Shown here one piece after another: positions 4,550-18,511 of a stretch of DNA of 64,000 bases (position 1 is the first letter of the stretch; each line of letters begins with the position of its first letter). The position numbers and the translations under genes are program-made. Origin of the DNA: Mycolicibacterium fluoranthenivorans (lineage in GTDB: Bacteria > Actinomycetota > Actinomycetes > Mycobacteriales > Mycobacteriaceae); NCBI RefSeq assembly GCF_011758805.1, contig NZ_JAANOW010000001.1, positions 2,294,001-2,358,000 of the forward strand, written 5' to 3'. The notes under the pieces were generated by a model, which worked only from the letters and a program-made list of their open reading frames with translations, was not told the origin of the DNA and did not search any database.

Positions 4550-5818
4550 TCACACATCGCGGGCGAGCAAGTCCGTCCAGGTATCGCGACGGACCACCAG
4601 CCGCGCGGTGCCGCCGGTGACGAAGACCACCGGGATGCGCCGGGCCCCGTTGTACTGGTTGGACATCGTGTAGCAATAGGCCCCGGTCACCGGCACCGCC
4701 AGCAGATCTCCCACCGCGGGCCGTGCCAGTGGCACGCCGTCGATGAGCTGGTCGCCCGATTCGCAGTGCCGCCCGACCAGGCTGACCGGCGCGCCCCCGC
4801 CGACCCGGTCGACGATGGTGGCTTCGAACCGCTGCCGGTAGAGCGACACCTCGAGGTTGTCACCCATCCCACCGTCGACGGCGACGTGCGTGACGACGCC
4901 GTGTTTGACGGTGACCACGCGGTACAGCGTGCACGCCGCCGCCGCCACCATGCTGCGACCGGGTTCGACGATGATGCGACTACCCGGGGGGAGCAATGCC
5001 CGGGCCGCGGCCACCATCGCCTCGGCATACTCGCCCACGGTGGGCGGGGCTTCGTCGTAGGTGTAGCGCACGCCCAGCCCACCACCCAGGTCGTAGACAT
5101 CGAAGGTGCCGAGCGCGGCCAGCGGTGCGACGGCGGCCGCCAGCTGGTCGACGTTGAGCAGCTGGGACCCGACGTGAGTGTGGAGTCCGTCGCAACGCAG
5201 CACGGCGCTGCGTTCGATCCTTCTGATGGCGGTGCGGGCATCGCCGGGGGACAAGCCGAACTTGGAGCCGCTGTGGCCCGTGGCGACGGAGGCGTGGGTA
5301 TCCGCGGTGACCCCGGGTATCACCCGGACCAGGCAGGCTTGCACTCGCCCGGGCGGCACGAGGCGCTCCAACCGGTCGATATCGTCGAAATTGTCGACCA
5401 CCACCAAGCCGACTCCGTGGCCGATGGCCAACTCGAGTTCCTCGTCGGTCTTGGCGTTGCCGTGCAATACCATCCGGGACGGATCTGCTCCCGCCGCGAC
5501 GGCGGTGACGATCTCACCGCCTCCCGCGACGTCCAGGTGCAACCCTTCCTCGGTCATCAGTCGCTGAATTGCGGTGCAGGGAAACGACTTCGATGCGAAC
5601 GCCACATCTGATCGGGGCCAGCGGCTGCGGAACTCCTGCAGATAGTCGCGGGCCCGCCGGCGCAGCGCGGATTCGTCCACCACCATGGTCGGCGTCCCGA
5701 ATTCGGCGGCGATATCGTCGAGCCGGCAGCCTCCCACCATGATCATGCCGTCCTCATCGAGCTGGGTGTCGGCCGGAAAGAGCTGGAGAATCTCTGGCGC
5801 CGTGCTGGTTTCGTTCAC
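4550..5818 (-). CDS. Diaminopimelate decarboxylase-like PLP enzyme (fold type III)
   Basis: A 422-residue alanine-racemase-fold enzyme. Visible hallmarks of the LysA group are ASKSF with the PLP lysine, THVGSQ, the glycine loop YDLGGGLGV, EPGRSMVA, VDGGMGDN, CESGD, and GAYCYTMSNQYNG near the end. The family decarboxylates meso-diaminopimelate or related D-centre amino acids. The window shows no lysine genes, and the gene ends a catabolic-looking operon. It may therefore be a second LysA-type enzyme acting on an imported compound rather than the biosynthetic enzyme. The GTG start at 5818 has a GAGGAG site upstream and overlaps the stop of the NagB-like gene by four bases (GTGA), which indicates translational coupling. 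Confidence 0.82.
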   Translation of the reverse strand: MNETSTAPEILQLFPADTQLDEDGMIMVGGCRLDDIAAEFGTPTMVVDESALRRRARDYLQEFRSRWPRSDVAFASKSFPCTAIQRLMTEEGLHLDVAGGGEIVTAVAAGADPSRMVLHGNAKTDEELELAIGHGVGLVVVDNFDDIDRLERLVPPGRVQACLVRVIPGVTADTHASVATGHSGSKFGLSPGDARTAIRRIERSAVLRCDGLHTHVGSQLLNVDQLAAAVAPLAALGTFDVYDLGGGLGVRYTYDEAPPTVGEYAEAMVAAARALLPPGSRIIVEPGRSMVAAAACTLYRVVTVKHGVVTHVAVDGGMGDNLEVSLYRQRFEATIVDRVGGGAPVSLVGRHCESGDQLIDGVPLARPAVGDLLAVPVTGAYCYTMSNQYNGARRIPVVFVTGGTARLVVRRDTWTDLLARDV

Positions 5819-6573
5819 CGGTGTTCTCCTCGGAGTGAAAGGCCGGCGGCCGCGGCCCGGTCGGCGATCACGGTCACGGCGGGGTGCCGCTGCAGCATCG
5901 AAGCCGGTACGTGCGGGTCGATCGGACCGGAAACGGCGGCTGTCAGGGCCGCCGACTTGGCCGTACCTGCGGCCAGCAGGACGATGGACCGGGCCCGCGA
6001 GATGGTGCCCAGACCCTGGGTGATCGCGCGGTGCGGGACATCGGCCACAGTGCCGAAGAAGCGGGCATTGTCCTGGCGGGTCTGCTCCGACAGCTGCACG
6101 ACTCGGGTACCCGACTCCCATGCCGAGCCGGGCTCGTTGAAGGCCAGGTGTCCGTTGCTGCCGATCCCGGCGATCTGCACGTCCACACCGCCGAGCGCCT
6201 CGATCCGGGTGTCGAGGTTCGCCGCTTCGAGGTCGGGGTCGGGGGCCAGTCCGTCGGCTATCACGATGTTCTCCGTCCCGATCCCCAGCGGCGCGGCCAC
6301 CAGTGTGCGGACATAGGTTGCGTAGCTGTCCGGATCGTCGGGGCCGAGCCCGACGTACTCGTCGAGCGCGATGAGAAGCGCTGTGCGCAAGTCGATTTGT
6401 CCGCACGCGTGCCGACGGGCCAACTCACGATACAGCGGGATCGGGGTGTCGCCGGTGGCGACGCCGAGTCGCGGGCGATGAGCGGGCAGCCGGCGCAGAA
6501 CCGCGTCGGCTGCCGCGGCACCGAACTGATCCGTATCGACCACCAGCAGCCGCAAGGATGCAGACATCGTCAC
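5815..6573 (-). CDS. Glucosamine-6-phosphate deaminase/isomerase family protein (NagB/PGL-like)
   Basis: A 252-residue sugar-phosphate isomerase. It shows the phosphate-binding loop GVATGDTPIPLYREL, LDEYVGLGPDDPDSY (catalytic Asp plus the NagB-type second Asp region), the strand VQIAGIGSNGHLAFNEPGSA, and the lid segment QGLGTISRARSIVLLAAG. These are the NagB motifs in the right order. The family converts glucosamine-6-phosphate to fructose-6-phosphate and ammonia, or hydrolyses 6-phosphogluconolactone. The GHLAFNEP sequence favours the deaminase branch. The GTG at 6573 overlaps the upstream kinase stop by four bases; an ATG at 6567 is the alternative start. In context it would act after a phosphorylation step on an amino sugar. 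Confidence 0.8.
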   Translation of the reverse strand: MTMSASLRLLVVDTDQFGAAAADAVLRRLPAHRPRLGVATGDTPIPLYRELARRHACGQIDLRTALLIALDEYVGLGPDDPDSYATYVRTLVAAPLGIGTENIVIADGLAPDPDLEAANLDTRIEALGGVDVQIAGIGSNGHLAFNEPGSAWESGTRVVQLSEQTRQDNARFFGTVADVPHRAITQGLGTISRARSIVLLAAGTAKSAALTAAVSGPIDPHVPASMLQRHPAVTVIADRAAAAGLSLRGEHR

Positions 6574-8006
6574 GGGCCGACCTTCCCGACGGCCACCCGC
6601 AGCGCGTCGTGCCGGTCGGCGGTCGCCGCCCACCAGTCGGCCTGCGCACCTCGCGGTGTCATCCGGTGAAACTGTGGTCGATGGACGATCTCCTGGCCCA
6701 GGCTGTTCGCCGCGAACAGGGCCGCACCGATCGCCGAATGGTCGCGGCTGACACGGTCGACGAGCACCTCGCGTCCGGTGGCGTCGGCGAGGTCCTGCCA
6801 CAACAGCGGATGTGCGGCCGCGCCGCCGCCCAGCAGTACCGGGCCCCGTCGTTCGGTGGCCGCTTCCGCGATCGCGACGGCACGGCGCAGCTCGACCACC
6901 ACACCGGTGAGCAGGGCCCGCCCCACATGGCCGGCGTGCATGGACAGATCCAGCCCGTGCAGGGTCCCGGTCAGATCCGGATCCCACAGTGCGCCTTGCT
7001 CGCCCGGGGTGAGGTAGGGCAGGAAGATCGGTGCGCAGTGGTGCGGGACGTCGGCCGCTGCGGTCAGTAACTCGGTGGGCCCCGGCAGGCCGACCAGGCG
7101 GGCGATACCACCGAAGGCGGCGCCGACGGCGAGGATGTCCATCTCCAGACCCCAGCCCGGGCCGGCGAGCGGGGTGACCAGATACCGGTGTTGGGGATCG
7201 CGGACCGCGGTGTCACAGATGCCCATGACGACAGCGCTGGTCCCGGCGATCACGGCGACATCACCGTGGCGGTTGGCGCCGATGCCGAGCGCGCCCAGCA
7301 CGGAATCGGCGGCGCCGAGCACCACCGGCACCGTACCGCTCAGCCCGAATGCCGCTCGCCAGTCCGATGACAGTGGTGCCGAGGTGGACGCCGGCGCCAC
7401 CGCGGGTAGCCCCGGGACAGCCGACACCGCAACCATTTCGGCATCCCACGCACCATCGTCGAGGTTGAACACCCCGGTACCGGCGGCCGTGCTCGGATCG
7501 GTCAGCAGCTCACCGGTGAGGCGGGCGAACAACACGTCCTTGGCCGCGGCCGCCAGAACTCCGCCGCGGCCGAGCCGTTCCAGACGCCGGTGCATGGGGA
7601 TCAGATACCGGCCGTCCACCCGCTGGCCGGTCACCTGATAGAGGTGTTCGTCGCCGAGTGCGTCCCGCAACCGCGCGGCATCGGGTTCGGCTCGGCCGTC
7701 CTCCCAGGTGACTGCCGGTCCGGTCGGGTGACCGGCACCGTCGAGAGCCACCAGCGTCGGCAACATCGCCGACAACCCGATGCCGGCCCACCGCGACGGT
7801 GCCACGGCTTCGGCGACCTCGCCCAGCGCTACTTCCAGCGCATCCCACCAATCCTGTGGATTCTGCTCTGCGGCCAGAGGTTCGGGATGGTGGGTGGGGT
7901 AGCCGCGCCGCGCGGTGGCATGCACGGCCCCGTCGGGTCCGACAGCCACGACCTTCAGCGCGGACGTGCCCAGGTCGACGCCGAGGTACGCACGGTCGAC
8001 GGTCAC
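6570..8006 (-). CDS. FGGY-family carbohydrate kinase (xylulokinase/gluconokinase-like)
   Basis: A 478-residue ASKHA-fold kinase. The N-terminal phosphate loop is YLGVDLGTSALKVVAV. The sugar-binding region carries AVTWEDGRAEPDA in place of the xylulokinase WxDxR. The C-terminal adenosine motif is GPVLLGGGAAAHPLLWQDL followed by TGREVLV. Length and motif order fit the FGGY family, which phosphorylates pentoses, pentulosones, gluconate or glycerol. The true sugar cannot be read from the sequence. The GTG start at 8006 overlaps the stop of the aminotransferase gene by four bases. Together with the NagB-like product it suggests that the imported compound contains a sugar or amino sugar. Confidence 0.82.
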   Translation of the reverse strand: MTVDRAYLGVDLGTSALKVVAVGPDGAVHATARRGYPTHHPEPLAAEQNPQDWWDALEVALGEVAEAVAPSRWAGIGLSAMLPTLVALDGAGHPTGPAVTWEDGRAEPDAARLRDALGDEHLYQVTGQRVDGRYLIPMHRRLERLGRGGVLAAAAKDVLFARLTGELLTDPSTAAGTGVFNLDDGAWDAEMVAVSAVPGLPAVAPASTSAPLSSDWRAAFGLSGTVPVVLGAADSVLGALGIGANRHGDVAVIAGTSAVVMGICDTAVRDPQHRYLVTPLAGPGWGLEMDILAVGAAFGGIARLVGLPGPTELLTAAADVPHHCAPIFLPYLTPGEQGALWDPDLTGTLHGLDLSMHAGHVGRALLTGVVVELRRAVAIAEAATERRGPVLLGGGAAAHPLLWQDLADATGREVLVDRVSRDHSAIGAALFAANSLGQEIVHRPQFHRMTPRGAQADWWAATADRHDALRVAVGKVGP

Positions 8007-9367
8007 GGCGTACGCGCGGGCTGCCGGCCGGCTGCCACCACGGACAACGCATCGGCGGCGGCGTTCAGCGTCTCGTCGATATCACGGTCGTCGTGTACCA
8101 GCGAGACGAACAGATTCTCGAACTGCAACGGGTGGAACAACACTCCGCGTACCACCATCTCTTGATACCACCGGGTGAACAACGCCTCGTCGGCCTGGGC
8201 CGCCGCGTCTCGCCAGTTGCGGATGGGACCATCGGCGAACCAGAGCTGGAAGACAGTGCCCAGCCCCTCGACGTAGGCATCCAGACCTCGTTCGGTCGCC
8301 AGCGACGAGAGCCCTTCGGCCAGCCGGTAACCAAGCGCACGCTGCCGTTCATAGAGTCCCGGTTCGGCGAGCACATCCATGGTGGCCGACACCGCAGCGC
8401 ACTGTACGACGTTGGCGTTGTAGGTGCCCGAGTGCGAATACTGCCCGGACGCGACGAGCGCCATGGCTTCGGTGGTACCGCCGACGGCCGCGACCGGGAA
8501 CCCCCCACCGAGACCTTTGGCCAGCGTCGTCAGATCCGGCAGCACGCCGAACCACTCCTGGGCCCCGCCGCGGGCGAAGCGGAAACCGGTGATCACCTCA
8601 TCGAAGATGAGCAGCGCGCCGTGCTTGCGAGTCTCGCTGCGCAGCAGCTCGAGATAGCCGGGTTCAGGCAGGATGCAGCCGGTGTTGAACACTGCCGGCT
8701 CGGTGAGCACGGCTGCCACCTCGTCACCGCGACGGTCCATCAACTCGACGAAACTCTCCGGATCGTTCCACGTCAACACCTCCAGGGTGCTCTCCAGCTC
8801 GGCGGGCACTCCCGGTCCCATGGCCACCGGCCTCGGGTGATCGGCCGGACCCGCCAGATCGACGTCGACGTGATTCGACCAGTACACGGTGTCCTGCCAG
8901 CCGTGGTAATGCCCTTCGAACCGGACGACCAACCGCCGACCGGTGGTGGCCCGCGCCAATCGGACGGCCGTGCCGACCGCCTCGGAACCGGAGTTCGTGA
9001 ATCGCACCTGTTCGATTCCCGGTACCGCGGCGACGACCTTCTCGGCGGCGGTGATCTCCAGTTCATAGGGCAGCCCGAAGCAGGTGCCCAGATCCGCGAT
9101 CGCCTGCTGTACCGCCGTGGTCACCACGGGATGACGATGGCCGAGGATCATCGGTCCGAGTCCGAGCAGATAGTCGATATAGGTATTCCCGTCGACATCG
9201 ACCAGACGTGAGCCGGTGCCCTCGGCCATGAAGATCGGGTAGGGATTCCATCCGTTGCGTGGCAATCGGGCCGTCGACCCGGCCCCGCCGGGAATGGTCA
9301 GTTTGGCCCGCTCGAACAGGGCACGGGTGTTCGGCGTACGCGAAGCGAACGCCTCGTCGAATGACAT
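8003..9367 (-). CDS. Class III aminotransferase, glutamate-1-semialdehyde aminomutase-like
   Basis: A 454-residue PLP enzyme of fold type I. It has FTNSGSEAVGTAVRLARATT and the aromatic FEGHYHGWQD segment, FDEVITGFR with the Asp that holds the pyridine nitrogen, and TLAKGLGGGFPVAAVGG with the Schiff-base lysine. These match the HemL/GSAM branch of class III aminotransferases. Because it sits in a transport and degradation operon, it is unlikely to be the haem-pathway HemL; transamination or amino-group migration on an amino acid or amino sugar is more likely. The start ATG 9367 has an AAGGAA site. It is separated from the upstream peptidase gene by 41 bases, the widest gap in the operon. Confidence 0.83.
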   Translation of the reverse strand: MSFDEAFASRTPNTRALFERAKLTIPGGAGSTARLPRNGWNPYPIFMAEGTGSRLVDVDGNTYIDYLLGLGPMILGHRHPVVTTAVQQAIADLGTCFGLPYELEITAAEKVVAAVPGIEQVRFTNSGSEAVGTAVRLARATTGRRLVVRFEGHYHGWQDTVYWSNHVDVDLAGPADHPRPVAMGPGVPAELESTLEVLTWNDPESFVELMDRRGDEVAAVLTEPAVFNTGCILPEPGYLELLRSETRKHGALLIFDEVITGFRFARGGAQEWFGVLPDLTTLAKGLGGGFPVAAVGGTTEAMALVASGQYSHSGTYNANVVQCAAVSATMDVLAEPGLYERQRALGYRLAEGLSSLATERGLDAYVEGLGTVFQLWFADGPIRNWRDAAAQADEALFTRWYQEMVVRGVLFHPLQFENLFVSLVHDDRDIDETLNAAADALSVVAAGRQPARTP

Positions 9368-9408
9368 TGGTATTCCTTGATTCTGTGTGATGGGGCGGTA
9401 GAGGGGCA

Positions 9409-10599
9409 TCAGGGATGAGGTGTGGCGGGCACCGGCGCACCGAGCAGGGTCACCACCGTGCGGCGCAGGATCTCGGCGGTGGCAACGACATCCGGGATCG
9501 AGACCCACTCCTCGGCGGCGTGATAGTTCCCGCCTTCCGGGCCGAACAAGACGGTGGGGATGCCCGCGCTCTGCAGCAGCGCGGCGTCGGTCCAGGCGTT
9601 GAGCCCCGAAATCTGTGCCCGGGTCCCGTTGACCGCTTCGGTGGCGTCGGCAAGAGCGGTCAGCAGCGCGTCGTTGCCGGCGCCGGTGAACGGTTCGCGG
9701 TCCAGCCGCACCCTGACCTCACCCCGGAATCGCGGCTCGGATTCCGCGATCTCGGCGAAGATGGCTTCGATCTCGGACACCCGGTCGGCCAGTGTTTCGC
9801 CGGGCTGCGTGCCGATCTCGATACCCAGCACCACTTCGGCGGGGTACGTGGCGTAATCGGTTCCGCCGTGGATGGTTCCGGTGTGAAACACCGTGCGGCC
9901 GTTCCGCGGGTCGGGATTGGGCTTCCAGCGGGTCTCGTCGAGTTGGTGCAGCCGGGTGATGACCTCGGCCATGTGCACGATGGCATCCACCCCCTTGTCC
10001 GGGGCAGACCCGTGCGCCGGCTTGCCGAACACCACGATGTCGATCCAGCCGAAGCCCTGGTGTTCCCCGAAGATCTGGTGTGAGCCGTCGGGTTCCAACT
10101 CGATCGCCAGGTCGATCTCGTCGGCGTGGTGCGCGACGAGATGTTCGGTGCCGATACTGATTCCCTCCTCGTCGATCGCCAGCGCCACCAGGACGTTGCC
10201 GGCCAGCGGTACACCCGAGCGCACGAGGTCGGCGGCGGCGAGCATGGCGGCCGCGCACCCACCCTTGTCATCGGCGACGCCCACGCCGATCATTCGGTCA
10301 CCTTCGATGACCGGTGTGAGGGCGCGGTCGGACCAGGACGCGTAGCCGACGGTATCGCTGTGCGCGGTCAGGCAGATCGTCGGTCCGGGAGCGCTGCCGC
10401 GCAGCCAGGCCAGCACATTGGGCCGGCCGGGTTCGACCTCTTCGAGGGTGACCTCCAGCCCGGCGGCGGTGAGCCAGTCCTGCATGAATCGCGCGACCTC
10501 GCCCTCACCGGCGCCACCGGGGATGAGCCACGGTGTCACCGAGTCGATCCGGACCAGACTGTCGAGCAGTGCGATCGTCTCTTCACGGCTGACGGTCAT
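9409..10599 (-). CDS. M20 family metallopeptidase (ArgE/DapE/ACY1 type)
   Basis: A 396-residue zinc-dependent amidohydrolase. It has the first metal ligand in LTAHSDTVGY, the bridging Asp in GVGVADDKGGCAAAML, the general-base pair in LVALAIDEEGISIG, a dimerisation-domain segment (GFGWIDIVVFGKPAHGSAPDKG) and a late ligand region GPEGGNYHAAEEW. The family removes N-acyl groups or cleaves dipeptides, with relatives that include DapE and ArgE. It probably releases an amino acid from an imported N-acyl or peptide conjugate. The start ATG 10599 follows AAGGAGAA and lies 17 bases inside the end of the upstream ABC ATPase gene, so translation is likely coupled. Confidence 0.84.
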   Translation of the reverse strand: MTVSREETIALLDSLVRIDSVTPWLIPGGAGEGEVARFMQDWLTAAGLEVTLEEVEPGRPNVLAWLRGSAPGPTICLTAHSDTVGYASWSDRALTPVIEGDRMIGVGVADDKGGCAAAMLAAADLVRSGVPLAGNVLVALAIDEEGISIGTEHLVAHHADEIDLAIELEPDGSHQIFGEHQGFGWIDIVVFGKPAHGSAPDKGVDAIVHMAEVITRLHQLDETRWKPNPDPRNGRTVFHTGTIHGGTDYATYPAEVVLGIEIGTQPGETLADRVSEIEAIFAEIAESEPRFRGEVRVRLDREPFTGAGNDALLTALADATEAVNGTRAQISGLNAWTDAALLQSAGIPTVLFGPEGGNYHAAEEWVSIPDVVATAEILRRTVVTLLGAPVPATPHP

Positions 10600-11611
10600 C
10601 TGAGCTTCTCCTTCGGGTTGGATGAACTGTGGTGTCCCAGAAGTGGCACGCCACGGTGTGTTCGGCACTGATCGAATGCAATGCCGGGGGCTCGGTGGTG
10701 CAGCGCTGCGGAGCGCCGAGTGCCGCAAACAGCGGACAACGCGGCGCGAAGCGGCAGCCGGCGAATCGGGTGGTGGGGTTGGGCGGCTCGCCCGTGAGCA
10801 GCGCGCGGGGACGGTGGCGACTGCCGGGCTTGGGCATCACGTCGACCAGTGCCCGCGTATAGGGGTGCGCTGGGTGGTCGATGACCTGTGCCGCCACCCC
10901 TTCCTCGACGACACGACCCAGATAGAGCACCGCCACCCGATCGGCGAAGACGCCGGCCAATGCGAGGTCGTGGGTGATGAACAACGTGGCGATACCGAGG
11001 CGCTCGCGCAGATCCAGTAGCACCCGCAAGATCCCGGCGCGCAACGACACATCGAGCATGGATACCGGCTCGTCGGCGATGAGCAGTCGCGGCTCGATGG
11101 CCACCGCCGCGGCGATGGCCACCCGCTGTCGTTGGCCACCGGAGAGTTCGAACATCCGCCGCCCCGAAATCGCCTCGGGCAGACCGCACGAGGCAAGGGC
11201 TGCGACCGCCGCAGCGCGGCGATCGGCACTGTTCAGGTGGCGATGGTGGATGGCCACCCCCTCCGTGACCACGTCGAGCGCGGTGGCGTTGGTGGGCAGG
11301 CTCTCGAACGGGTCCTGGAAGATCATCTGGAAGTCGCGGCGCATGGTGCGCAACTGCCGGCCACCCAGATGGGTGATGTCGACCCCTCCGATCTCGATCG
11401 ATCCCGAGGTCGCATCCTGTAACCGCATGACCGTCCGCGCGATGGTGGTCTTACCGCAGCCCGATTCGCCGACAAGCGCCAGGATTTCGCCTTTGTGGAT
11501 GGTGAGGCTCACGCCGTCGACGGCGCGGGCGAGCATCCGTTTGCGACCGTGCCGGATAGGGAAATGCACATGCAGGTCCGAGATCTCGGCGATGGCTCGT
11601 TGTTCGGTCAT
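10583..11611 (-). CDS. Oligopeptide ABC transporter ATP-binding protein (OppF/DppF type)
   Basis: A 342-residue ATPase subunit. It has Walker [10 protein letters not shown], a Q-loop region FQMIFQDPFESLP, signature LSGGQRQRVAI, Walker B LLIADEPVSMLD and a switch His in FITHDLAL. The C-terminal oligo_HPY extension follows (HPYTRALVDVMPKPG, then paired cysteines in GCRFAPRCPLF). Such ATPases pair with a second ATPase to drive peptide-type importers. The ATG at 11611 overlaps the stop of the partner ATPase gene by four bases (ATGA). It works with the adjacent OppD-, OppC- and OppB-like subunits and the binding protein. Confidence 0.9.
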   Translation of the reverse strand: MTEQRAIAEISDLHVHFPIRHGRKRMLARAVDGVSLTIHKGEILALVGESGCGKTTIARTVMRLQDATSGSIEIGGVDITHLGGRQLRTMRRDFQMIFQDPFESLPTNATALDVVTEGVAIHHRHLNSADRRAAAVAALASCGLPEAISGRRMFELSGGQRQRVAIAAAVAIEPRLLIADEPVSMLDVSLRAGILRVLLDLRERLGIATLFITHDLALAGVFADRVAVLYLGRVVEEGVAAQVIDHPAHPYTRALVDVMPKPGSRHRPRALLTGEPPNPTTRFAGCRFAPRCPLFAALGAPQRCTTEPPALHSISAEHTVACHFWDTTVHPTRRRSSDDRQP

Positions 11612-12618
11612 CGGGCCACCCCCAACGTGAGCCCTCCGTGAGCCGGTATCCGATGGCAGGCGGTGAGGTGCGCGGCGTCACCGTCCACCAGTCGCAGTCC
11701 CGGGTCTTCGGTGGCGCACTCGGGCAGCGCCACCTCGCACCGATCGTGGAACCGGCATCCGTCCGGTGGATGGACGAGATCAGGCGGACTGCCGGGAATT
11801 CCGTTGATCGAGGTGGTTCCCGTTCCCGCTCGGGGAAAGCAGTCCAACAACTTTCGGGTGTACGGGTGGGCCGGGTCCGCCGAACCGGTGTCGCTGAACA
11901 TGCGTTCGGCTCGACCGCTTTCGACGATGCGCCCGGCGTACATCACTGCGGCCCGGTCGCACAGCTCGCCCAGCACCATCAGATCGTGGGAGATCACCAG
12001 CATGGCCAGGTCGAGTTCGTCGGCCAGTCGCCGGATGAGAGCCAGGATCTGTGCTTGGGTCATGACATCGAGCGCGGTGGTGGGTTCGTCTGCGATCACC
12101 AGTTCGGGCTCGCAGGCCAGCGCCATGGCGATCATGGCCCGCTGCTTCATGCCGCCGGAGAACTGATGCGGATAATCGGCGGCGCGGCCCGGCGTGATGC
12201 CCACTTGGCCGAGCAGGTCTGCGACACGCGCCCTGATCTGGCGCCTCCCGACGCCGGGCCGATGGGTGCGGATGGCCTCGCCGATCTGCGCACCTATCGG
12301 CATGACCGGGTTGAAGCCGTTCATCGCGCCCTGGAACACCATCGACAGCCGGCTCCAGCGCATATTGCGCAAGTGCTCGTCGTCAGCGGTCAGTACGTCG
12401 GTGTCGCCGAGGACCATACGGTCGGCGCTGACCTGGACGCTCGGCGGTAACAGCCGGGTGACCGCGAGTGCCAAGGTACTTTTGCCGCAGCCAGATTCAC
12501 CGGCGAGTCCGACCACCTCCCCGGAGTCGATGTCGAGGTCGACGCCGTCGACGGCATGCACATCGCCGCTATCGGACGGGTAGGTGACCGACAGGTTTCG
12601 GATCTGGAGCAGGTTCAT
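11608..12618 (-). CDS. Oligopeptide ABC transporter ATP-binding protein (OppD/DppD type)
   Basis: A 336-residue ATPase subunit with Walker [31 protein letters not shown], signature [12 protein letters not shown], Walker [13 protein letters not shown] and the switch region VISHDLMVL. The C-terminal oligo_HPY domain ([15 protein letters not shown]) carries the four-cysteine pattern around [14 protein letters not shown] that is common in this subfamily. It forms the second half of a heterodimeric ATPase with the OppF-like subunit. The start ATG 12618 overlaps the permease stop by four bases, as do most junctions of this operon. Confidence 0.9.
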
Positions 12619-13499
12619 GAGGTCGCCGCCAGTTTCGGGTTGAGGATGTGTTCGAGGGCCTGCCCGATCAGCGAAAAGGCCAGCACGACGGCGACGATGC
12701 CGATACCGGGTGGCAGGAAATACCACCAGTACCCGTTACCGACCGCGCCGGAGACGAAGGCGTTGTGCAGGATCTGGCCCCATGATGTGCGCGACGGGTC
12801 GCCGAGCCCCAGGAATGACAACGTCGCCTCGGCAAGGATGGATCCGGCGATCACCAGGACGGCATTGGCGATCACCAATGCCAGTACGCCGGGCAGGATC
12901 AACTTCCACAGCACACCCGACGACGACAATCCCACCGTGCGGGCCCGGGCCACCACTTCGCGTTCCCGTAGCTCGAGCGTCTGTGAGCGGACGATGCGGG
13001 CCGTCGTGGGCCAGCTGGTGACGGCGATGACCAGCACGATCATCGGAAGGCTTTGCCCCACCATGGCGCCGAGGGCGATCATCAGCGGCAGGTTCGGTAA
13101 CACCAGGAAGAAGTCGGTGATCCGCATCAAGATGGCATCGACGACACCGGTGAACCACCCGGCGAGAATTCCGACGACGGTCCCGATGAGGACGGTGACC
13201 AGGGTGGCGATCACGCCGATCTGCAGCGAGATCGGAGCGCCCGCGAGCACCTGGCGCAGGACGTCGCGACCCAGCTCATCGGTGCCCAAGAGATGGGTGG
13301 TGCTGGGGGCCTGCAGGATTCCGGTGCGGGACTGCGCGACCGCAGCACGGTCATACGGGGCCAGCACGGGACCGACGACGGCGATGACGATCACCGCGGC
13401 GGCCAGCACCAGGCCGATGCGGCCGAGCGCGTCGTGCCACAGTCGCGCCGGTAGGTTGCGCCAGCCAGATCCGGTGGTCGAGGGTTTCTTCTCGGTCAT
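12615..13499 (-). CDS. Oligopeptide ABC transporter permease (OppC/DppC type)
   Basis: A 294-residue inner-membrane permease. An N-terminal cytosolic stretch is followed by a first membrane segment (IGLVLAAAVIVIAVVGPVLA), a long external region including HLLGTDELGRDVLRQVLAGA (the OppC signature), and four or five more membrane segments. The cytosolic EAA loop that contacts the ATPase is seen as VVARARTVGLSSSGVLWKLILP cut into its parts (REREVVARARTVGLSSS, then LPGVL). Start ATG 13499 overlaps the OppB-like stop by four bases. It forms the channel with the OppB-like permease. Confidence 0.9.
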   Translation of the reverse strand: MTEKKPSTTGSGWRNLPARLWHDALGRIGLVLAAAVIVIAVVGPVLAPYDRAAVAQSRTGILQAPSTTHLLGTDELGRDVLRQVLAGAPISLQIGVIATLVTVLIGTVVGILAGWFTGVVDAILMRITDFFLVLPNLPLMIALGAMVGQSLPMIVLVIAVTSWPTTARIVRSQTLELREREVVARARTVGLSSSGVLWKLILPGVLALVIANAVLVIAGSILAEATLSFLGLGDPSRTSWGQILHNAFVSGAVGNGYWWYFLPPGIGIVAVVLAFSLIGQALEHILNPKLAATS

Positions 13500-14464
13500 G
13501 TCAGCCGTACTCTCGGGTCCAATGCGCGATAGAGGACATCGCTGCCGAAGTTGGCCAGCACCACGACGACGGCGAAGATCAGGAAGCATGCCTCCATCAC
13601 CGGGTAGTCGCGGCGCACCACGGACAGATAGATCAACTGCCCCATCCCCGGCCAGGAAAACACCGTCTCGACCTGGATCGTGCCGCCGACCGTGGCGCTG
13701 GCGTACAGGGTGGTCGCCGTGACGACCGGTAGCAGGGCATTGCGCACACCGTGCCGCCACAAGACCCGCCGCGGATGCAACCCCTTGGCTCGGGCGGTGG
13801 TCATGAAATCCTCCGACAGCGTGCTCACCAGTGAACTGCGGGTGATGAGTACGAACTGGGCGATGTCCACCAGCACCATCGCGGTGGTCGGAAGGACCAA
13901 ATGCCGTGCCAGGTCCGAGATCCGGGTCACAAAGGTGGGATAGATCGCGTCGGCGGTGTACATGCCGGCGATGGGCAGCCAGTTCAGTGCGACCGCGAAC
14001 ACGAAGATGAGCAACATGCCGATCCAGAACGTGGGCAGGCTCCAGAACACCAGTGACCCCACGACAAGCCCACGGTCGGCTCGGGTGCCCCGACGGGATG
14101 CGGCGAACACACCGATCAACACACCGAGCGCGATCACCAGGACGGTCGACACCGTCACCAGGATCACGGTGTTCACCAGCGCGTCGGCCACGATCGGGCC
14201 GACCGGGGCTGAATACGAGAAGGAGTATCCGAAGTCACCGTGCAGCAGGTGCGACACGTAGGTGGCGAACTGATCGATCAGCGGTCGGTCGAGCCCGTAG
14301 TACGTCCGCAGCCGGGCCACGGCAGCGGCATCGAGGTGCTGGCCCCGGGCGATATGGGTCACCGGGTCACCGGGCATCAAATGGAAGATGAGGAAGTTGG
14401 TCGTCAGCACAGCTCCGAGAGTGAGGAAGAGGTAGACGAATTTCGTTGCGAGATAACGCACCAT
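13496..14464 (-). CDS. Oligopeptide ABC transporter permease (OppB/DppB type)
   Basis: A 322-residue inner-membrane permease starting at ATG 14464. The N-terminus (YLATKFVYLFLTLGAVLTTN) is the first membrane helix. The OppB-type external segment FHLMPGDPVTHIARG and TYYGLDRPLIDQF follow, then five more helices. The EAA loop is FMTTARAKGLHPRRVLWRH, and the C-terminal TVFSWPGMGQLIYLSVVRRD is characteristic. It is 15 bases downstream of the binding-protein gene, so the order in transcription is binding protein, OppB, OppC, OppD, OppF. Confidence 0.91.
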   Translation of the reverse strand: MVRYLATKFVYLFLTLGAVLTTNFLIFHLMPGDPVTHIARGQHLDAAAVARLRTYYGLDRPLIDQFATYVSHLLHGDFGYSFSYSAPVGPIVADALVNTVILVTVSTVLVIALGVLIGVFAASRRGTRADRGLVVGSLVFWSLPTFWIGMLLIFVFAVALNWLPIAGMYTADAIYPTFVTRISDLARHLVLPTTAMVLVDIAQFVLITRSSLVSTLSEDFMTTARAKGLHPRRVLWRHGVRNALLPVVTATTLYASATVGGTIQVETVFSWPGMGQLIYLSVVRRDYPVMEACFLIFAVVVVLANFGSDVLYRALDPRVRLT

Positions 14465-14479
14465 CGCGTCGTGGCTACC

Positions 14480-16120
14480 TCAGGCGGGTTTCACGTCGAG
14501 GTAATTGGCCCTGGAGAAGTTCAACACCATGCCGCCCTTCATCGGTTCCCATCCGGTCCAGGTGTCGGTCCGGGTCCCGGTGAGCTTCTTCTGGTACCAC
14601 ATCACGATGTACGGACACGCCGCGTAGTGGATGGCCTGCATCTCCTGGACGAGCTTGACCCGGGCCGGTCGGTCCGTCGTGGTGTTCTGCCGGGCATAGA
14701 GATCGTCGTAGCGCGGGTCGGTCCAGAACGTGTCGTTGTTACCGCCGATCTGATCGGTGGTGGCAAGGCCGAGTAGATACGAGGGGTCGTACAGTCCGGA
14801 GTCCCAGCCCCACACCATGATGTCCCAGTCCGGGGCGTCGGTGTTGTACACCGTGGCCCCCATGCTGTCGGCATCGGTGGTCGACGGCTTGAGCCGGACT
14901 CCGATCGCCTTGGCGGCGGTGGTGAACAGTTCGGCCGCTTTGACGTCCACGGCCGTATCGGCTATCGACAGGATGCGAAACTCCAGGGGCGCACCATCTT
15001 TGGATTCCCGGATACCGTCGCCGTTGCGATCGGTGTATCCGGCCTCATCCAGCAGCTTGCGTGCCTTGTCCGGGTTGTTGTCCAGTACGGCCTCGGCGCC
15101 TGGGCTGTAGTGGAAATCGCCGAATGCGGGCGGTAACAGGTCGGTGCCCGGCTCGCCGTACCCCGACAGGGCGAGTTCAACGAGTTGTCGACGACTGACC
15201 GCACACGACAGTGCTTGCCGGATGGTCTGGTCGCGCAGCAACGGGTTGCCTTTCGATCCCGGCGCAGCCGAGCAGTTGAACCCGATCATGTGGAATGAGA
15301 ATGCCTCCATCTCAGTGCTTTTGACGTTCGAGGCGTCTTTCAAGCCGGTGTAGATGGTCGGGGGCACCTCGGCGACGATGTCGACATCGCCGGTGCGCAG
15401 CGCTTGTGTGACGATATCGTCGCTGCCGTACTTGGTCCAGGTCACCTTTTCAGCCGCGGGTTTGGGACCCCACCAGGCGTCGTTGCGGGCAACCGTGGCC
15501 ACGCTGCCCTTGTTCCATGACACGTAGGTGAACGGTCCGGTACCGACCGGCTTTTCGTTGGCGAACTTCGGCAGGTCGTCTTTGGAAACGCCCTCCCACA
15601 CATGTTTGGGGGCGATCGGGATGATGATGCCTGGCTCCAGGACTTGTGGCTCGGAGTAGGTGAGCCGCACCTGGGTGCCGCTCACCTTGGTCACGTCGAC
15701 GAGGTTCTTGAGGTAGGCGCCGTAGGTCCCGTAGTCGTTGTCGCGCACCATCAGGAAGGTGAACACGACGTCGTCGGCGGTGAAATCCTTGCCGTCGTGC
15801 CAGGTGACGCCCGAGCGCAGCGTGTAGGTGAAGGTGCGGTCACCGTCGGTCTTCTGCACATTGGTGGCCAGCGACGGGACGATATTCAGCTGCGCGTCGT
15901 AGGTCATCAGCTTGTCGTAGACCAGCTGCAGGACGTCATCGGATTGGGTCGAGTCGGCAGTGAACGGGTTGAGCGAATCGATGTCGGTGGTGGACCCGAC
16001 CCGGAGCACCGTGCGGGTGGCGGTTTGCGGGGCGCAACCAGCCAATGCGGCGGCGCCTCCCAGCGCGGCTGCCACCACCGCCGAGGTCCGCAGGAACTTG
16101 CGTCGATCCATAGCGTGCAT
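14480..16120 (-). CDS. Tat-exported peptide-type ABC substrate-binding lipoprotein (family 5)
   Basis: A 546-residue solute-binding protein, first gene of the operon. The N-terminus has a twin-arginine motif (DRRKFLRTSA), a hydrophobic stretch and LAGC, a lipobox. It therefore appears to be folded before Tat export and then anchored as a lipoprotein. The mature part is an SBP_bac_5 protein (TLRSGVTWHDGKDFTADDV is the family signature; ALSCAVSRRQLVELALSGYG also fits). The family binds di- and oligopeptides, opines, nickel chelates or oligosaccharides, so specificity is open. An AAGGAGAA site ten bases before ATG 16120 sets the start; ATG 16111 is possible. A 16-bp palindrome lies about 40 bases upstream. 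Confidence 0.88.
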   Translation of the reverse strand: MHAMDRRKFLRTSAVVAAALGGAAALAGCAPQTATRTVLRVGSTTDIDSLNPFTADSTQSDDVLQLVYDKLMTYDAQLNIVPSLATNVQKTDGDRTFTYTLRSGVTWHDGKDFTADDVVFTFLMVRDNDYGTYGAYLKNLVDVTKVSGTQVRLTYSEPQVLEPGIIIPIAPKHVWEGVSKDDLPKFANEKPVGTGPFTYVSWNKGSVATVARNDAWWGPKPAAEKVTWTKYGSDDIVTQALRTGDVDIVAEVPPTIYTGLKDASNVKSTEMEAFSFHMIGFNCSAAPGSKGNPLLRDQTIRQALSCAVSRRQLVELALSGYGEPGTDLLPPAFGDFHYSPGAEAVLDNNPDKARKLLDEAGYTDRNGDGIRESKDGAPLEFRILSIADTAVDVKAAELFTTAAKAIGVRLKPSTTDADSMGATVYNTDAPDWDIMVWGWDSGLYDPSYLLGLATTDQIGGNNDTFWTDPRYDDLYARQNTTTDRPARVKLVQEMQAIHYAACPYIVMWYQKKLTGTRTDTWTGWEPMKGGMVLNFSRANYLDVKPA

Positions 16121-16159
16121 CGCTCGAGTTCTCCTTCGTCTGCTCCAGGTGCAGAGGCA

Positions 16160-16175
16160 ACTGTGTATACACAGT
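16160..16175. promoter_or_regulatory. Perfect 16-bp palindrome, likely operator of the GntR regulator
   Basis: ACTGTGTATACACAGT is its own reverse complement over all 16 bases. It lies in the AT-richer gap between the divergent operon (start 16120) and the regulator gene (start 16345). HutC-type GntR proteins bind short palindromes with GT and AC half-sites of this kind. Binding here would block or direct transcription of the transport operon; this is inference from position and symmetry. A weaker repeat, GCATA and TATGC with five bases between, lies at 16287-16301 near the regulator. Confidence 0.6.
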
Positions 16176-16344
16176 ATTTTGAGTATCAATGTGATCGGGC
16201 GATTTCGTGAGTGTTTCGTTGACATCTCATCTTCTTGGGAAGGAATCGCCACTAAAACCGCATATCTGGGAGCTCATACGCATGCTGCATAGTTAGTATG
16301 CTCTGATCAGCACAGTGACGCGCGCGCGATCAGGAGGGGGGCGG

Positions 16345-17175
16345 ATGGCGACACCGCGAAGGGCCGGCCCGGCTGGAGGTGACCGGAAGCTGCGATACCA
16401 GCAGGTTCAGGAGTTGGTGCTGACCATCATGGCGGAGCGGGATCTCCGTCCCGGCGATCGTCTGCCGTCCACCACAGAACTCGCCGATATCGCCGACGTC
16501 AGCACCATCTCGGTGCGCCGGGCCCTTGATGAGCTGGAGCGGGCCGGCCGGATCAAACGGCACCAGGGGCTGGGGACCTTCGTCGCCGAGCCCCGTATTG
16601 CCGCCGACCCGACCCGGCCGGGGGAGTTGTTACAGACCCTGACCGACAATCAGGGGCGAGCGCCGTCGATGTCCACTTCCCTGATCGCCATATCGGTCGG
16701 GCTTCCCAGTGCGACGATCGCCGCCGCGCTGGGCGTGGATGCCGGTCAGCCGGTATGGGAGATCTGGCGCCGGCGCGACATCGGCGTCGGGACGATCGCC
16801 GACCGGATCCTCGAACGGGCCGTGCTGCCGTTGAGCAGGGTGCCCGCGATCGACCGGGAATGGTTGGCCGGCGGCCAGTCGCTGTACCGCTTTCTGCAGG
16901 AACGGTATGGGTTCACAGATGAGTACACCGAGCAGGCGTTCGAGGTCGACAGTCCCAGTGGCTGGGAGGCCGAACAGTTGGAGCTAGAGCCTGGTGAGCC
17001 GATGGTGCGCATTCGCGGTGTCAGCTTCGATGCGTCCGGACAGGCCTTCGACTGTTTCGAACAGTGTTATCGCGCAACGAAGTTCACCTTCTACACGGCC
17101 GGCCAGACCCGGCGCCGAATACTCGGTCCGTCAGAACTGTGCAACTGGTCGGTCGCGCCCCTGGGTGCTCCCTAG
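16345..17175 (+). CDS. GntR/HutC-family transcriptional regulator with UTRA domain
   Basis: A 276-residue regulator. The N-terminal winged helix (about residues 15-85) shows LRPGDRLPSTTELADIADVS, SVRRALDELERAGRI and HQGLGTFV, the GntR signature. The C-terminal part is a UTRA effector domain (VWEIWRRRDIGVGTIADRIL, LYRFLQERYGF, GEPMVRIRGVSFDASGQAFD). UTRA domains of this group usually sense sugar phosphates or amino acid derivatives, for example NagR with glucosamine-6-phosphate and HutC with urocanate. AGGAGG at 16332-16337, seven bases before ATG 16345, fixes the start; a GTG at 16315 lacks such a site. It is divergent from the ten-gene operon and is its probable repressor. Its stop shares CTAG with the convergent glycosyltransferase stop. 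Confidence 0.88.
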   Translation: MATPRRAGPAGGDRKLRYQQVQELVLTIMAERDLRPGDRLPSTTELADIADVSTISVRRALDELERAGRIKRHQGLGTFVAEPRIAADPTRPGELLQTLTDNQGRAPSMSTSLIAISVGLPSATIAAALGVDAGQPVWEIWRRRDIGVGTIADRILERAVLPLSRVPAIDREWLAGGQSLYRFLQERYGFTDEYTEQAFEVDSPSGWEAEQLELEPGEPMVRIRGVSFDASGQAFDCFEQCYRATKFTFYTAGQTRRRILGPSELCNWSVAPLGAP

Positions 17176-18413
17176 CGATCCGGCAGCGCGTGCTCGACGA
17201 TCGGCCGGCGCGGAAGTGGTTCGCGTTCACCGCGTTTGGCGGCGAGGTAGACCTGGGCGGTCTCGGCCGCGACGGTGTGCCAGTCGAAGTCGTGGTTGAG
17301 CCGCTCCCGCGCGGCGACGGCACGCCGCTGCGCGGCGGCGGGATCGTCGAGCACGGTGCGCACCGCTGTCGCCAGGGCGGCGACATCGTGCGGCGGGAAG
17401 GACACCCCGGTCTCGCCGTCGATGACGGCCTCGCCGAGGCCACCCACGTTGGAGGTGACCAACGGCGTCCCGGTGGCGGCGGCTTCCAGCGCCACGATGC
17501 CGAACGGCTCGTAGTGACTGGGCAATACGGCCGCGTCGACGGTGTGCAGCAGCTGCACCAGCTCGGCGTGGTCCAGGCGTCCGACGAAGTCGACCGCTTT
17601 GAGCACCTTGTGCTTACGCGCCTGCTCGCCGAGCCAGTCCCGCTGGGTGCCGTCGCCGGCGACGATCAGCCTGGTGCCCGGGTGCGTGCGCCGGATCCGG
17701 GGGAGTGCGGCGATCGCGTCCTGCACCCCCTTCTCGTACTCCAGCCGTCCCAGGAACAGCAGCCGGGCCGGCCCGTCGTGAACGGTGCGTCGCGCGAACG
17801 GCCATGCGGCCGAATCGATCCCGTTGCGGATGACATGCGTTTCGGCGAGGCCGGGACCGAACAGTTCGACGATCTCGTCGCCCATGGACGCCGAACAGGT
17901 GATCAGCGAATCGGATTCGCGCACCAGCCAGGACTCGGCCGCGTGCACCTGCCGGCTGATCGCGCCCGACACCCAGCCGGAGTGGCGGCCGGCTTCGGTC
18001 GCATGGATGGTGGAAACCAAAGGCACATCGAAGAATTCGGCTAAGGCGATGGCGGGGTGAGCGACCAGCCAATCATGGGCGTGCACGACGTCGGGGTACC
18101 AGGCGCGTTCACCCCGAGCGCCGAAGGCCAGCCCGGCGCGGGTCATGGAGTGGCCCATGGCCAGTACCCAGGCCATCATGTCCGTACCGAAATCGAATTC
18201 GTGCGGGTCCTCCGCGGCGGCGACCACGCGCACGCCCTCGCACATCTCGTCGGTGGACGGATGGGTACTCGGATCGGTACCGGTGGGCCGTCGGCACAGC
18301 ACGACGACCTCATGGCCGGCTTCGGCCAGGGCGGTGGCGAGGTGGTGTACGTGCCGGCCGAGTCCGCCGACCACCACCGGCGGGTACTCCCAGGACACCA
18401 TCAGGATCTTCAT
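17172..18413 (-). CDS. GT4-type alpha-glucosyltransferase of methylglucose lipopolysaccharide/glycogen synthesis
   Basis: A 413-residue GT-B glycosyltransferase. The N-terminus MKILMVSWEYPPVVVGGLGR is nearly diagnostic for the Rv3032 group. VHAHDWLVAHPAIALAEFFD, the acceptor region SWLVRESDSLITCS, LLFLGRLEYEKGVQDAIAAL and the donor site YEPFGIVALEAAATGTPLVTS with its E-x7-E follow. In mycobacteria this enzyme builds the alpha-1,4-glucan backbone of MGLP and contributes to glycogen (known for the family). The start at 18413 overlaps by ATGA the stop of the repeat-made micro-ORF, which in turn overlaps the GH57 gene. It converges with the GntR gene over a shared CTAG. Confidence 0.9.
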   Translation of the reverse strand: MKILMVSWEYPPVVVGGLGRHVHHLATALAEAGHEVVVLCRRPTGTDPSTHPSTDEMCEGVRVVAAAEDPHEFDFGTDMMAWVLAMGHSMTRAGLAFGARGERAWYPDVVHAHDWLVAHPAIALAEFFDVPLVSTIHATEAGRHSGWVSGAISRQVHAAESWLVRESDSLITCSASMGDEIVELFGPGLAETHVIRNGIDSAAWPFARRTVHDGPARLLFLGRLEYEKGVQDAIAALPRIRRTHPGTRLIVAGDGTQRDWLGEQARKHKVLKAVDFVGRLDHAELVQLLHTVDAAVLPSHYEPFGIVALEAAATGTPLVTSNVGGLGEAVIDGETGVSFPPHDVAALATAVRTVLDDPAAAQRRAVAARERLNHDFDWHTVAAETAQVYLAAKRGEREPLPRRPIVEHALPDR

Positions 18414-18511
18414 CGGTGCTCTCTGCTCTTCGCGCAAGCGCTCATCGGTGCCTTACTGCTCTTCGCGCAAGCGCTCATCGGTGCCTTACTGCTCTTCGCG
18501 CAAGCGCTCAT
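18410..18511 (-). CDS. Coupling micro-ORF of three 11-residue repeats
   Basis: ATG 18511 opens a 33-codon frame read leftwards whose product is two copies of MSACAKSSKAP and then MSACAKSREHR. The ATG overlaps the TGA of the GH57 gene (ATGA at 18508-18511), and its own TGA overlaps the ATG of the glycosyltransferase gene (ATGA at 18410-18413). The 33-base unit keeps frame, so each repeat adds 11 codons without breaking the chain. This is the arrangement described for mycobacterial interspersed repetitive units, where a small ORF bridges two operon genes. Whether a peptide accumulates is unknown; re-initiation to keep the downstream gene translated is the simpler role. Confidence 0.55.
   Translation of the reverse strand: MSACAKSSKAPMSACAKSSKAPMSACAKSREHR

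Follow-up and report, generated by a model that had tools for sequence, protein, structure and literature searches.

The described systems closest to the locus reported here are nag/dasR-type catabolism and the frl/fra/gfr operons. The locus is a ten-gene operon with a GntR/UTRA regulator gene in Mycolicibacterium fluoranthenivorans, a soil mycobacterium, and it lies in a 64,000-nucleotide stretch of contig NZ_JAANOW010000001.1 (positions 2,294,001 to 2,358,000), which we call the window. Like nag/dasR-type systems, it ends in a glucosamine-6-phosphate deaminase-like protein and has a GntR/UTRA regulator that is nearest, weakly, to DasR; unlike them, it has no listed NagA match and includes an FGGY kinase, a pyridoxal 5'-phosphate (PLP) enzyme resembling glutamate-1-semialdehyde aminomutase (GSAM) and a peptide-type importer. 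With the frl/fra/gfr operons it shares an importer, a kinase, a sugar-phosphate deaminating or deglycating enzyme and a GntR-type regulator, whereas kinase family, deaminase family and PLP enzyme differ (the frl families being partly general background). The frl kinase belongs to the PfkB family, and the parts of Escherichia coli frl enter the same comparison. For Bacillus subtilis frl, we used the parts given in PMC12632257. At the level of single enzymes, the LysA-like decarboxylase of the operon differs from LysA and D-ornithine/D-lysine decarboxylase in having a glutamate for the specificity-helix arginine that binds the carboxylate of diaminopimelate (DAP). The GSAM-like enzyme differs from GSAM (HemL), which interconverts an alpha-amino aldehyde and a 1-amino ketone, and from PctV 3-aminobenzoate synthase, a PLP enzyme that acts on 3-dehydroshikimate: it scores 394 bits against a hemL cut-off of 527, and the loop that follows its YHG motif has a different sequence and more residues than that of the genome's own HemL.

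With a probability of about 0.57, we read the cluster as a mobile unit under its own regulator that takes up and breaks down an amino sugar, either amino-acid-like or linked to a peptide. Sequence comparison shows a conserved unit, the exchange of NagB for a NagB-II-like protein, a shared operator-like site and a residue change in the LysA-like enzyme. The compound is probably amino-sugar-containing and broken down to a common sugar, by way of two enzyme families, FGGY kinase and GSAM-like, that are unusual in amino-sugar breakdown; each specific chemistry considered below is improbable when taken singly, set against the figure for the whole. No description of the gene combination was found in one open-access library, judged from listings, and no pathway name was found for the conserved cross-phylum catabolic core.

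A ten-gene operon and its divergent regulator gene

The operon consists of ten minus-strand genes (4550–16111), transcribed in the order binding lipoprotein, two permeases, two ATPases, M20 peptidase, GSAM-like enzyme, FGGY kinase, NagB and LysA-like decarboxylase. With the starts as chosen, six of the nine junctions are 4-base overlaps, one is a 17-base overlap and the other two are gaps of 15 and 41 bases. The ten genes for enzymes and transporters, and the regulator gene, all lie within 4550–17175, on the strands and mostly with the four-base overlaps described in the first-pass annotation of this DNA; the regulator, which that annotation had facing the operon, is in fact divergent, back to back with it, and converges with a glycosyltransferase gene (17172–18437). 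All ten proteins were scanned with NCBIfam (best 25 models per protein), and seven of them plus the regulator with Pfam, the B-like permease (permB) and the two ATPases lying outside the Pfam set; some proteins were scanned with a few additional N-terminal residues. The features are as follows.

4550–5818, minus strand: LysA-like PLP decarboxylase (fold III), predicted D-amino-acid decarboxylase; TIGR01048, 359 bits
5815–6573, minus strand: NagB-type glucosamine-6-phosphate deaminase; 2bkv/2bkx match, TIGR00502 209 bits
6570–8006, minus strand: FGGY carbohydrate kinase, predicted amino-sugar kinase; PF00370/PF02782
8003–9367, minus strand: GSAM-like class III PLP enzyme (aminomutase, aminotransferase or eliminase), the best conserved member of the set; hemL model, 394 of 527 bits
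9409–10599, minus strand: M20 family peptidase/deacylase; PF01546, PF07687, TIGR01910
10583–11611, minus strand: Opp/Dpp-type ABC ATPase (F-like); NF008453, 277 of 408 bits, and related models
11608–12618, minus strand: Opp/Dpp-type ABC ATPase (D-like); NF007010, 270 of 575 bits, and NF008246, 270 of 541 bits
12615–13499, minus strand: Opp/Dpp-type permease (C-like); PF00528, PF12911, Opp4C 257 of 350 bits
13496–14464, minus strand: Opp/Dpp-type permease (B-like); Opp2B, 252 of 350 bits
14480–16111, minus strand: solute-binding lipoprotein, family 5; PF00496, 283 bits
16160–16175, unstranded: operator candidate, perfect 16-base palindrome ACTGTGTATACACAGT; sole genome site at two or fewer mismatches
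16287–16301, minus strand: second conserved inverted-repeat-like site GCATACTAACTATGC by the regulator gene; intergenic alignment
16345–17175, plus strand: GntR/UTRA regulator; PF00392, PF07702

The core recurs across phyla

A kinase-seeded scan of one genome per species yielded 80 loci, the best 80 of 158 relatives. In L001–L023, the kinase gene either accompanies a GSAM gene or is truncated where its contig ends; the control loci (L024–L080, n = 57) carry other FGGY kinases, at most 35% identical. After four repeated loci were dropped, 36 non-repeated core loci were counted. A GSAM gene accompanies the FGGY gene in 34 of these 36 and in none of the 57 controls, and the two core loci without the pair (L018 and L022) are cut by contig ends. 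A GSAM-like PLP enzyme, an FGGY kinase and a GntR regulator form a core that recurs in Actinomycetota, Chloroflexi and Dormibacterota. With only few candidates per genome scored, the GSAM protein was found at E 1e-150 or better in 18 of 198 genomes of the genus and in 3 of 396 genomes of a phylum sample, the own genome included in both counts.

Genes for the regulator, binding protein, both permeases, both ATPases, GSAM-like enzyme and kinase occur together in all 17 other loci fetched from the genus, and because these eight gene types hold together in 17 of 17, the grouping is far beyond chance. The remaining genes are less constant: NagB is present in 16 of the 17 (missing from L110), LysA in 14 (missing from L102, L103 and L111) and M20 in 13, with M17 in the remaining four (L113–L116). 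Over the 36 core loci, the accessory LysA and M20 genes number 19 and 23, respectively, one M20 (in L019) being a distant relative. The kinase-seeded neighbourhood search, one of the checks proposed in the first-pass annotation, thus found the genes recurring together, contradicting the possibility raised there that they are never found together elsewhere. In two loci, tblastn matches are broken: NagB, GSAM and permB of L117 and the binding protein gene of L112 each fall in two pieces, for which decay or sequencing error are possible causes.

The same operon occupies different neighbourhoods. It lies in the methylglucose lipopolysaccharide (MGLP) neighbourhood in L001–L005 and L103, and near MFS transporter and LppX_LprAFG lipoprotein genes, the two flank genes common to most loci, which we took for host genes, in L006, L007, L104, L105, L106, L108, L111 and L117 (Pfam was run on the L006 pair, and the other loci were grouped by blastp). 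The MGLP location is therefore incidental and says nothing about function. The gene at 2456–3745, used as a flank marker, encodes a PQQ_2 protein (Pfam). In L010–L014, the cluster is kept in small actinobacterial metagenome-assembled genomes (1.4–1.9 Mb), a retention that suggests a common natural substrate.

Two unrelated deaminase-like proteins exchange places

The best solved match of the window NagB is the glucosamine-6-phosphate deaminase 2bkv/2bkx (E 2.7e-46, the 2bkv match spanning residues 34–243 of 252), and 12 of its 13 distinct listed solved sequences are named glucosamine-6-phosphate deaminase or isomerase. Across the 36 core loci, NagB occurs in 19 and a NagB-II-like SIS protein in 7, with both in none and neither in 10; at the same 60-bit threshold, the 57 control loci gave one weak NagB match and no SIS protein. 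The stretches with the SIS protein and without a NagB match (L010, L015, L016, L017, L019, L021 and L023) are all non-mycobacterial. The SIS proteins of L010, L015, L016 and L019 match nearly the whole NagB-II model NF046059 with 167–207 bits. The NagB-II-like proteins are 340–349 residues long, and the best solved chain for that of L010 is 8eol, titled glucosamine-6-phosphate deaminase. Because unrelated proteins of one activity appear to swap places, this exchange is the strongest sign that the core yields glucosamine-6-phosphate or a very close analogue. The earlier suggestion that a NagB-type deamination ends the sugar branch is supported by this substitution of a NagB-II-like protein in other lineages.

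The GSAM-like enzyme and the kinase are the most constant part

Although the GSAM-like protein stays below the hemL cut-off, it exceeds that of the GSAM-branch model NF000818 (413 versus 398 bits). The genome's HemL is a separate gene (C1:1150085, 609 bits). We compared the fold of a predicted model of moderate quality (mean pLDDT of 75.3, with loop 150–168 under 50): the top 14 rows are GSAM entries, led by one at 40.7, and PctV (38.7) falls within the range of the GSAM entries, which extend down to 38.4. In sequence and predicted fold, the enzyme lies with GSAM and PctV, two relatives that the fold comparison does not clearly tell apart. Residue R31, which we take to be the carboxylate-binding residue of GSAM (Arg32 there), is conserved in 40 of 40 rows; it leaves the substrate unsettled, because a transaminase needs that arginine for its cosubstrate too.

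Together, the GSAM protein and kinase form the most constant part of the cluster. The GSAM protein changes more slowly than the kinase: identities to the window's proteins are 72% (L010) and 75% (L016) for GSAM and 43% and 45% for the kinase, and the lowest GSAM identities are 60% (L017) and 63% (L021). GSAM, FGGY, GntR and NagB-II-like genes occur together in four loci (L016, L019, L021 and L023), and three of the four also have an amino-acid permease. Neither a peptidase nor a LysA relative was found beside the GSAM gene in the available stretches of L016 (21 kb), L021 and L023 (short contigs of 7.7 kb each), and L019 has the distant M20 relative. This gene content places the GSAM-like enzyme in a sugar branch and the peptidases and LysA in a conjugate branch. 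That an aminotransferase processes the freed amino acid, as first suggested, is therefore unlikely.

The kinase reaches 209 of 380 bits for XylB, 143 of 649 for GntK and 76 of 590 for GlpK, and none of the 12 listed models is over its cut-off. Full-length paralogues elsewhere in the genome, which the first-pass annotation had named as a ground for doubt, do exist for HemL, LysA and NagB, but the HemL- and LysA-like copies in the cluster have diverged from them; the second NagB of the genome, like that of the window, misses the curated cut-off (199 bits).

One operator-like site is shared between loci

Both domains of the regulator score over their cut-offs (PF00392, 52.5 bits; PF07702, 86.7 bits). 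Its closest solved chain is DasR, at a weak 60 bits, followed by a GntR-family protein and YvoA, and these relatives are too weak to name an effector. Two GntR matches in the own genome (C3:4212 and C5:416894) agree exactly in score and frame length, which may reflect a duplicated stretch or a repeated contig end.

Aligning the gap between the regulator gene and the operon in mycobacterial loci revealed a 16-base palindrome. It reads ACTGTGTATACACAGT in the window (16160–16175) and ACTCTGTATACAGAGT in other loci, both sides having changed together; other copies vary on one side only. Among 20 M20-type mycobacterial loci, 18 (four being repeats) carry it with no more than one mismatch, and L110 has a copy with three mismatches. 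The own 6.4 Mb genome contains a single copy and no other site within two mismatches. The site at 16287–16301 is conserved, inverted-repeat-like and distinct from this palindrome.

We then searched 16 non-mycobacterial loci (240,718 bases, 16,119 of which were defined as cluster-gene promoters). Seven sites with two or three mismatches were found, and all seven fall in cluster promoters; they belong to six of the 16 loci (L009, L015 with two, L017, L019, L021 and L023), those of L019, L021 and L023 lying between the NagB-II and GSAM genes. For comparison, 60 shuffled palindromes gave a mean of 0.15 sites inside promoters (maximum 2) and 1.53 outside. The view of the cluster as one co-regulated uptake and catabolic unit, already taken in the first-pass annotation, is strengthened by conservation across genomes and this shared operator-like site. 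One operator-like site, one regulator and one operon offer a clean handle on the regulon.

Importer, hydrolases and a decarboxylase with an altered specificity helix

The Opp/Dpp ABC importer is complete, with an SBP_bac_5 binding protein, two permeases and two ATPases in order. The binding protein has a twin-arginine-like RRKFLR motif and a lipobox-like LAGC, both read by eye, and its closest solved chain is the oligopeptide-binding AppA. In L106, L108 and L109, an amino-acid permease gene lies between the M20 and GSAM genes. The M20 protein scores 197.5 bits with the ArgE/DapE subfamily model TIGR01910, below the cut-off of 217.6. In L113–L116, M17 replaces M20 and is joined by a beta-lactamase-fold hydrolase gene, which in L115 has a different position and is cut by the end of the stretch.

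The LysA-like protein is over the TIGR01048 (lysA) cut-off of 297.9 bits and is closest to actinobacterial LysA. The arginine of its specificity helix (DNIR in LysA of Mycobacterium tuberculosis and in the genome's own housekeeping LysA) is replaced by glutamate (DNLE); by alignment count, R344 of the M. tuberculosis sequence corresponds to Glu323 here. Glu323 is present in 19 of 19 rows of the LysA alignment, and the glutamate recurs in 21 locus copies (three of them repeats), the stretch shown for L108 being another match. Of the two arginines that hold the distal carboxylate of DAP, the enzyme retains only the one in EPGR; the CE glutamate is retained as well. According to PMC7857480, the DAP carboxylate is bound by Arg343 in a DAP decarboxylase, whereas in the ornithine, arginine and carboxyspermidine decarboxylases basic substrates are bound by aspartates at the specificity-helix position; PMC8277567 assigns Arg249 and Arg285 to the distal carboxylate and Glu315 to the distal amine. 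The correspondence of residues across species is our own reading of alignments. Because glutamate replaces the arginine for the DAP carboxylate, we predict that the LysA-like enzyme acts on a D-amino acid with a basic end. A hint of DAP metabolism drawn from the DapE-like and LysA-like members is weakened both by this substitution and by the subthreshold M20 score. The own genome has a third match to the lysA model (248 bits, C3:162274–163464), with one TAG inside it.

A proposed pathway for a conjugated amino sugar

The reactions, their order, the repression, the place where the hydrolases act and the substrate are our proposal. An Opp/Dpp-type ABC importer would take the compound in intact, a role that amino-acid permeases or other ABC importers may also fill in relatives. 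Intracellular hydrolases (M20 in the window; in relatives, M17 together with the beta-lactamase-fold protein) would release the amino acid part, and the LysA-like enzyme would decarboxylate a D-amino acid that has a basic end. The GSAM-like PLP enzyme would remodel the amino sugar around its amine, the FGGY kinase would then phosphorylate the product, and NagB, or the NagB-II-like protein elsewhere, would convert glucosamine-6-phosphate to fructose-6-phosphate and ammonia. The GntR/UTRA protein would repress through the palindrome at 16160–16175 until a phosphorylated intermediate binds. The original idea that a conjugate of an amino acid and an amino sugar is imported holds in outline, and peptidases (M20, or M17 with the hydrolase) fit it; its diaminopimelate component does not fare as well. 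If true, the proposal gives the FGGY kinase family a role in amino-sugar metabolism, extends the GSAM family by a new reaction, supplies a natural D-amino-acid decarboxylase and means that the glutamate-1-semialdehyde aminomutase label on many listed relatives of the cluster enzyme needs correcting.

Several points weigh against this proposal. We infer the amino acid part from accessory genes that vary among loci, and the control loci differ in taxa and are in some cases short. We know of no FGGY kinase with an amino-sugar substrate. The window NagB falls below the TIGR00502 cut-off (236.9 bits), and the scanned NagB-II-like proteins fall below that of NF046059 (430 bits); those of L017, L021 and L023 are called NagB-II only by tblastn likeness to L010 and L015. 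GlmS models beat NagB-II in L010 (217 versus 197 bits) and equal it in L015 (182 versus 181), these matches covering the isomerase half only. Ten of the 36 core loci have neither deaminase in the available stretch: L018 and L020 are under 4 kb, L022 starts inside the kinase gene, a NagB-II-like protein (200–209 bits, open frame of 348, distinct from a longer GlmS frame) is encoded elsewhere in the genomes of L011–L014, and NagB (230–281 bits) is encoded elsewhere in the genomes of L008, L009 and L110. The palindrome was not found in L112 or L113–L116, and 10 of the 16 non-mycobacterial loci gave no operator-like site. The main text of an FGGY review (PMC3245297), in the part available, does not contain the word glucosamine.

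A specific form of the proposal makes the GSAM-like enzyme a PLP-dependent muramic-acid etherase that yields glucosamine for the kinase and NagB or NagB-II. Deprotonation at C2 would be followed by beta-elimination or replacement of the 3-O-lactyl group, giving glucosamine. Muramic acid is the boldest candidate; its open-chain form resembles glutamate-1-semialdehyde, both being alpha-amino aldehydes that carry a carboxylate at a distance of a few bonds. We consider this unlikely as it stands, and it heads the specific chemistries. If true, etherase, peptidases and D-amino-acid decarboxylase would amount to a second, MurQ-independent route for cell-wall residues in environmental actinobacteria.

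Alternative explanations

Next in order, and also unlikely, is muropeptide scavenging, in which imported peptides are cut, lysine is made from DAP by decarboxylation and NagB serves as the entry point for the sugar. The Opp/Dpp importer, the M20 or M17 and beta-lactamase-fold hydrolases, a LysA-like protein over the lysA cut-off and the presence of NagB all suit it, but the arginine-to-glutamate change falls at the very site for the distal carboxylate of DAP, and a housekeeping LysA is already encoded elsewhere in the genome. A D-aminopeptidase model does match the L009 and L010 hydrolases (54 and 59 of 443 bits), yet esterase or class C beta-lactamase models score slightly higher (66–70 bits), all far under cut-offs. 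No NagA, MurQ, lytic glycosidase or N-acetylmuramoyl amidase is among the matches listed for the window proteins (best 25 NCBIfam models for each of the ten, Pfam for seven).

Slightly more doubtful is an analogue of frl/fra. Here the FGGY kinase would phosphorylate an imported glycated amino acid or peptide, and NagB or NagB-II would act as a deglycase to split it. The parts are alike (an amino-acid permease in some loci, a kinase, a SIS/NagB-type enzyme and a GntR-type regulator), and the L023 permease matches the FrlA model, but with 47 of 800 bits. The FrlB deglycase model, listed for the L010 SIS protein alone, reaches 44 bits there against 197 for NagB-II; the kinase is FGGY and not PfkB; and a PLP enzyme requires a primary amine, which N-substituted amino sugars lack.

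More doubtful again is a further specific version of the conjugated-amino-sugar proposal, in which the PLP enzyme is a 2,1-aminomutase converting 1-amino-1-deoxyfructose (isoglucosamine) to glucosamine for the kinase and NagB. Glucosamine and isoglucosamine are an aldehyde/ketone pair of the kind that GSAM interconverts, and membership of the GSAM branch and the window gene order GSAM-FGGY-NagB agree with such a step. However, isoglucosamine offers no natural source fitting an oligopeptide importer, and the carboxylate-binding R31 is kept throughout although the sugar has no carboxylate, which could be explained if R31 serves a cosubstrate.

That no single pathway exists, and the peptide importer and amino-acid enzymes merely share an operon with the sugar branch, accords with the variation of LysA, M20, M17 and the hydrolase from locus to locus but is very improbable given that GSAM, FGGY, GntR and NagB or NagB-II stay together across phyla with the operator-like site in many loci. 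Streptothricin (gulosamine and beta-lysine) was considered as a substrate and dropped, as no evidence supported it.

Relatives of the GSAM-like enzyme outside the core

At least 2,226 relatives of the GSAM-like protein were found at E 1e-100 among 7,999 candidates scored, and many of those listed carry the automatic name glutamate-1-semialdehyde aminomutase. Thirteen plasmid records from Roseomonas, Azospirillum and Aureimonas hold relatives below 60% identity. Of three neighbourhoods inspected, the Azospirillum one has no annotation, and the two annotated ones (Roseomonas and Aureimonas) have no annotated NagB, GntR or LysA gene; these records were set aside. On these two plasmids, the GSAM relative sits with HAD phosphatase, GNAT, alpha/beta hydrolase, EamA and two-component genes, a set looking like a small biosynthesis cluster for a surface amine or lipid. 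The Aureimonas plasmid stretch also carries an FGGY-family kinase gene about 10 kb from the GSAM relative.

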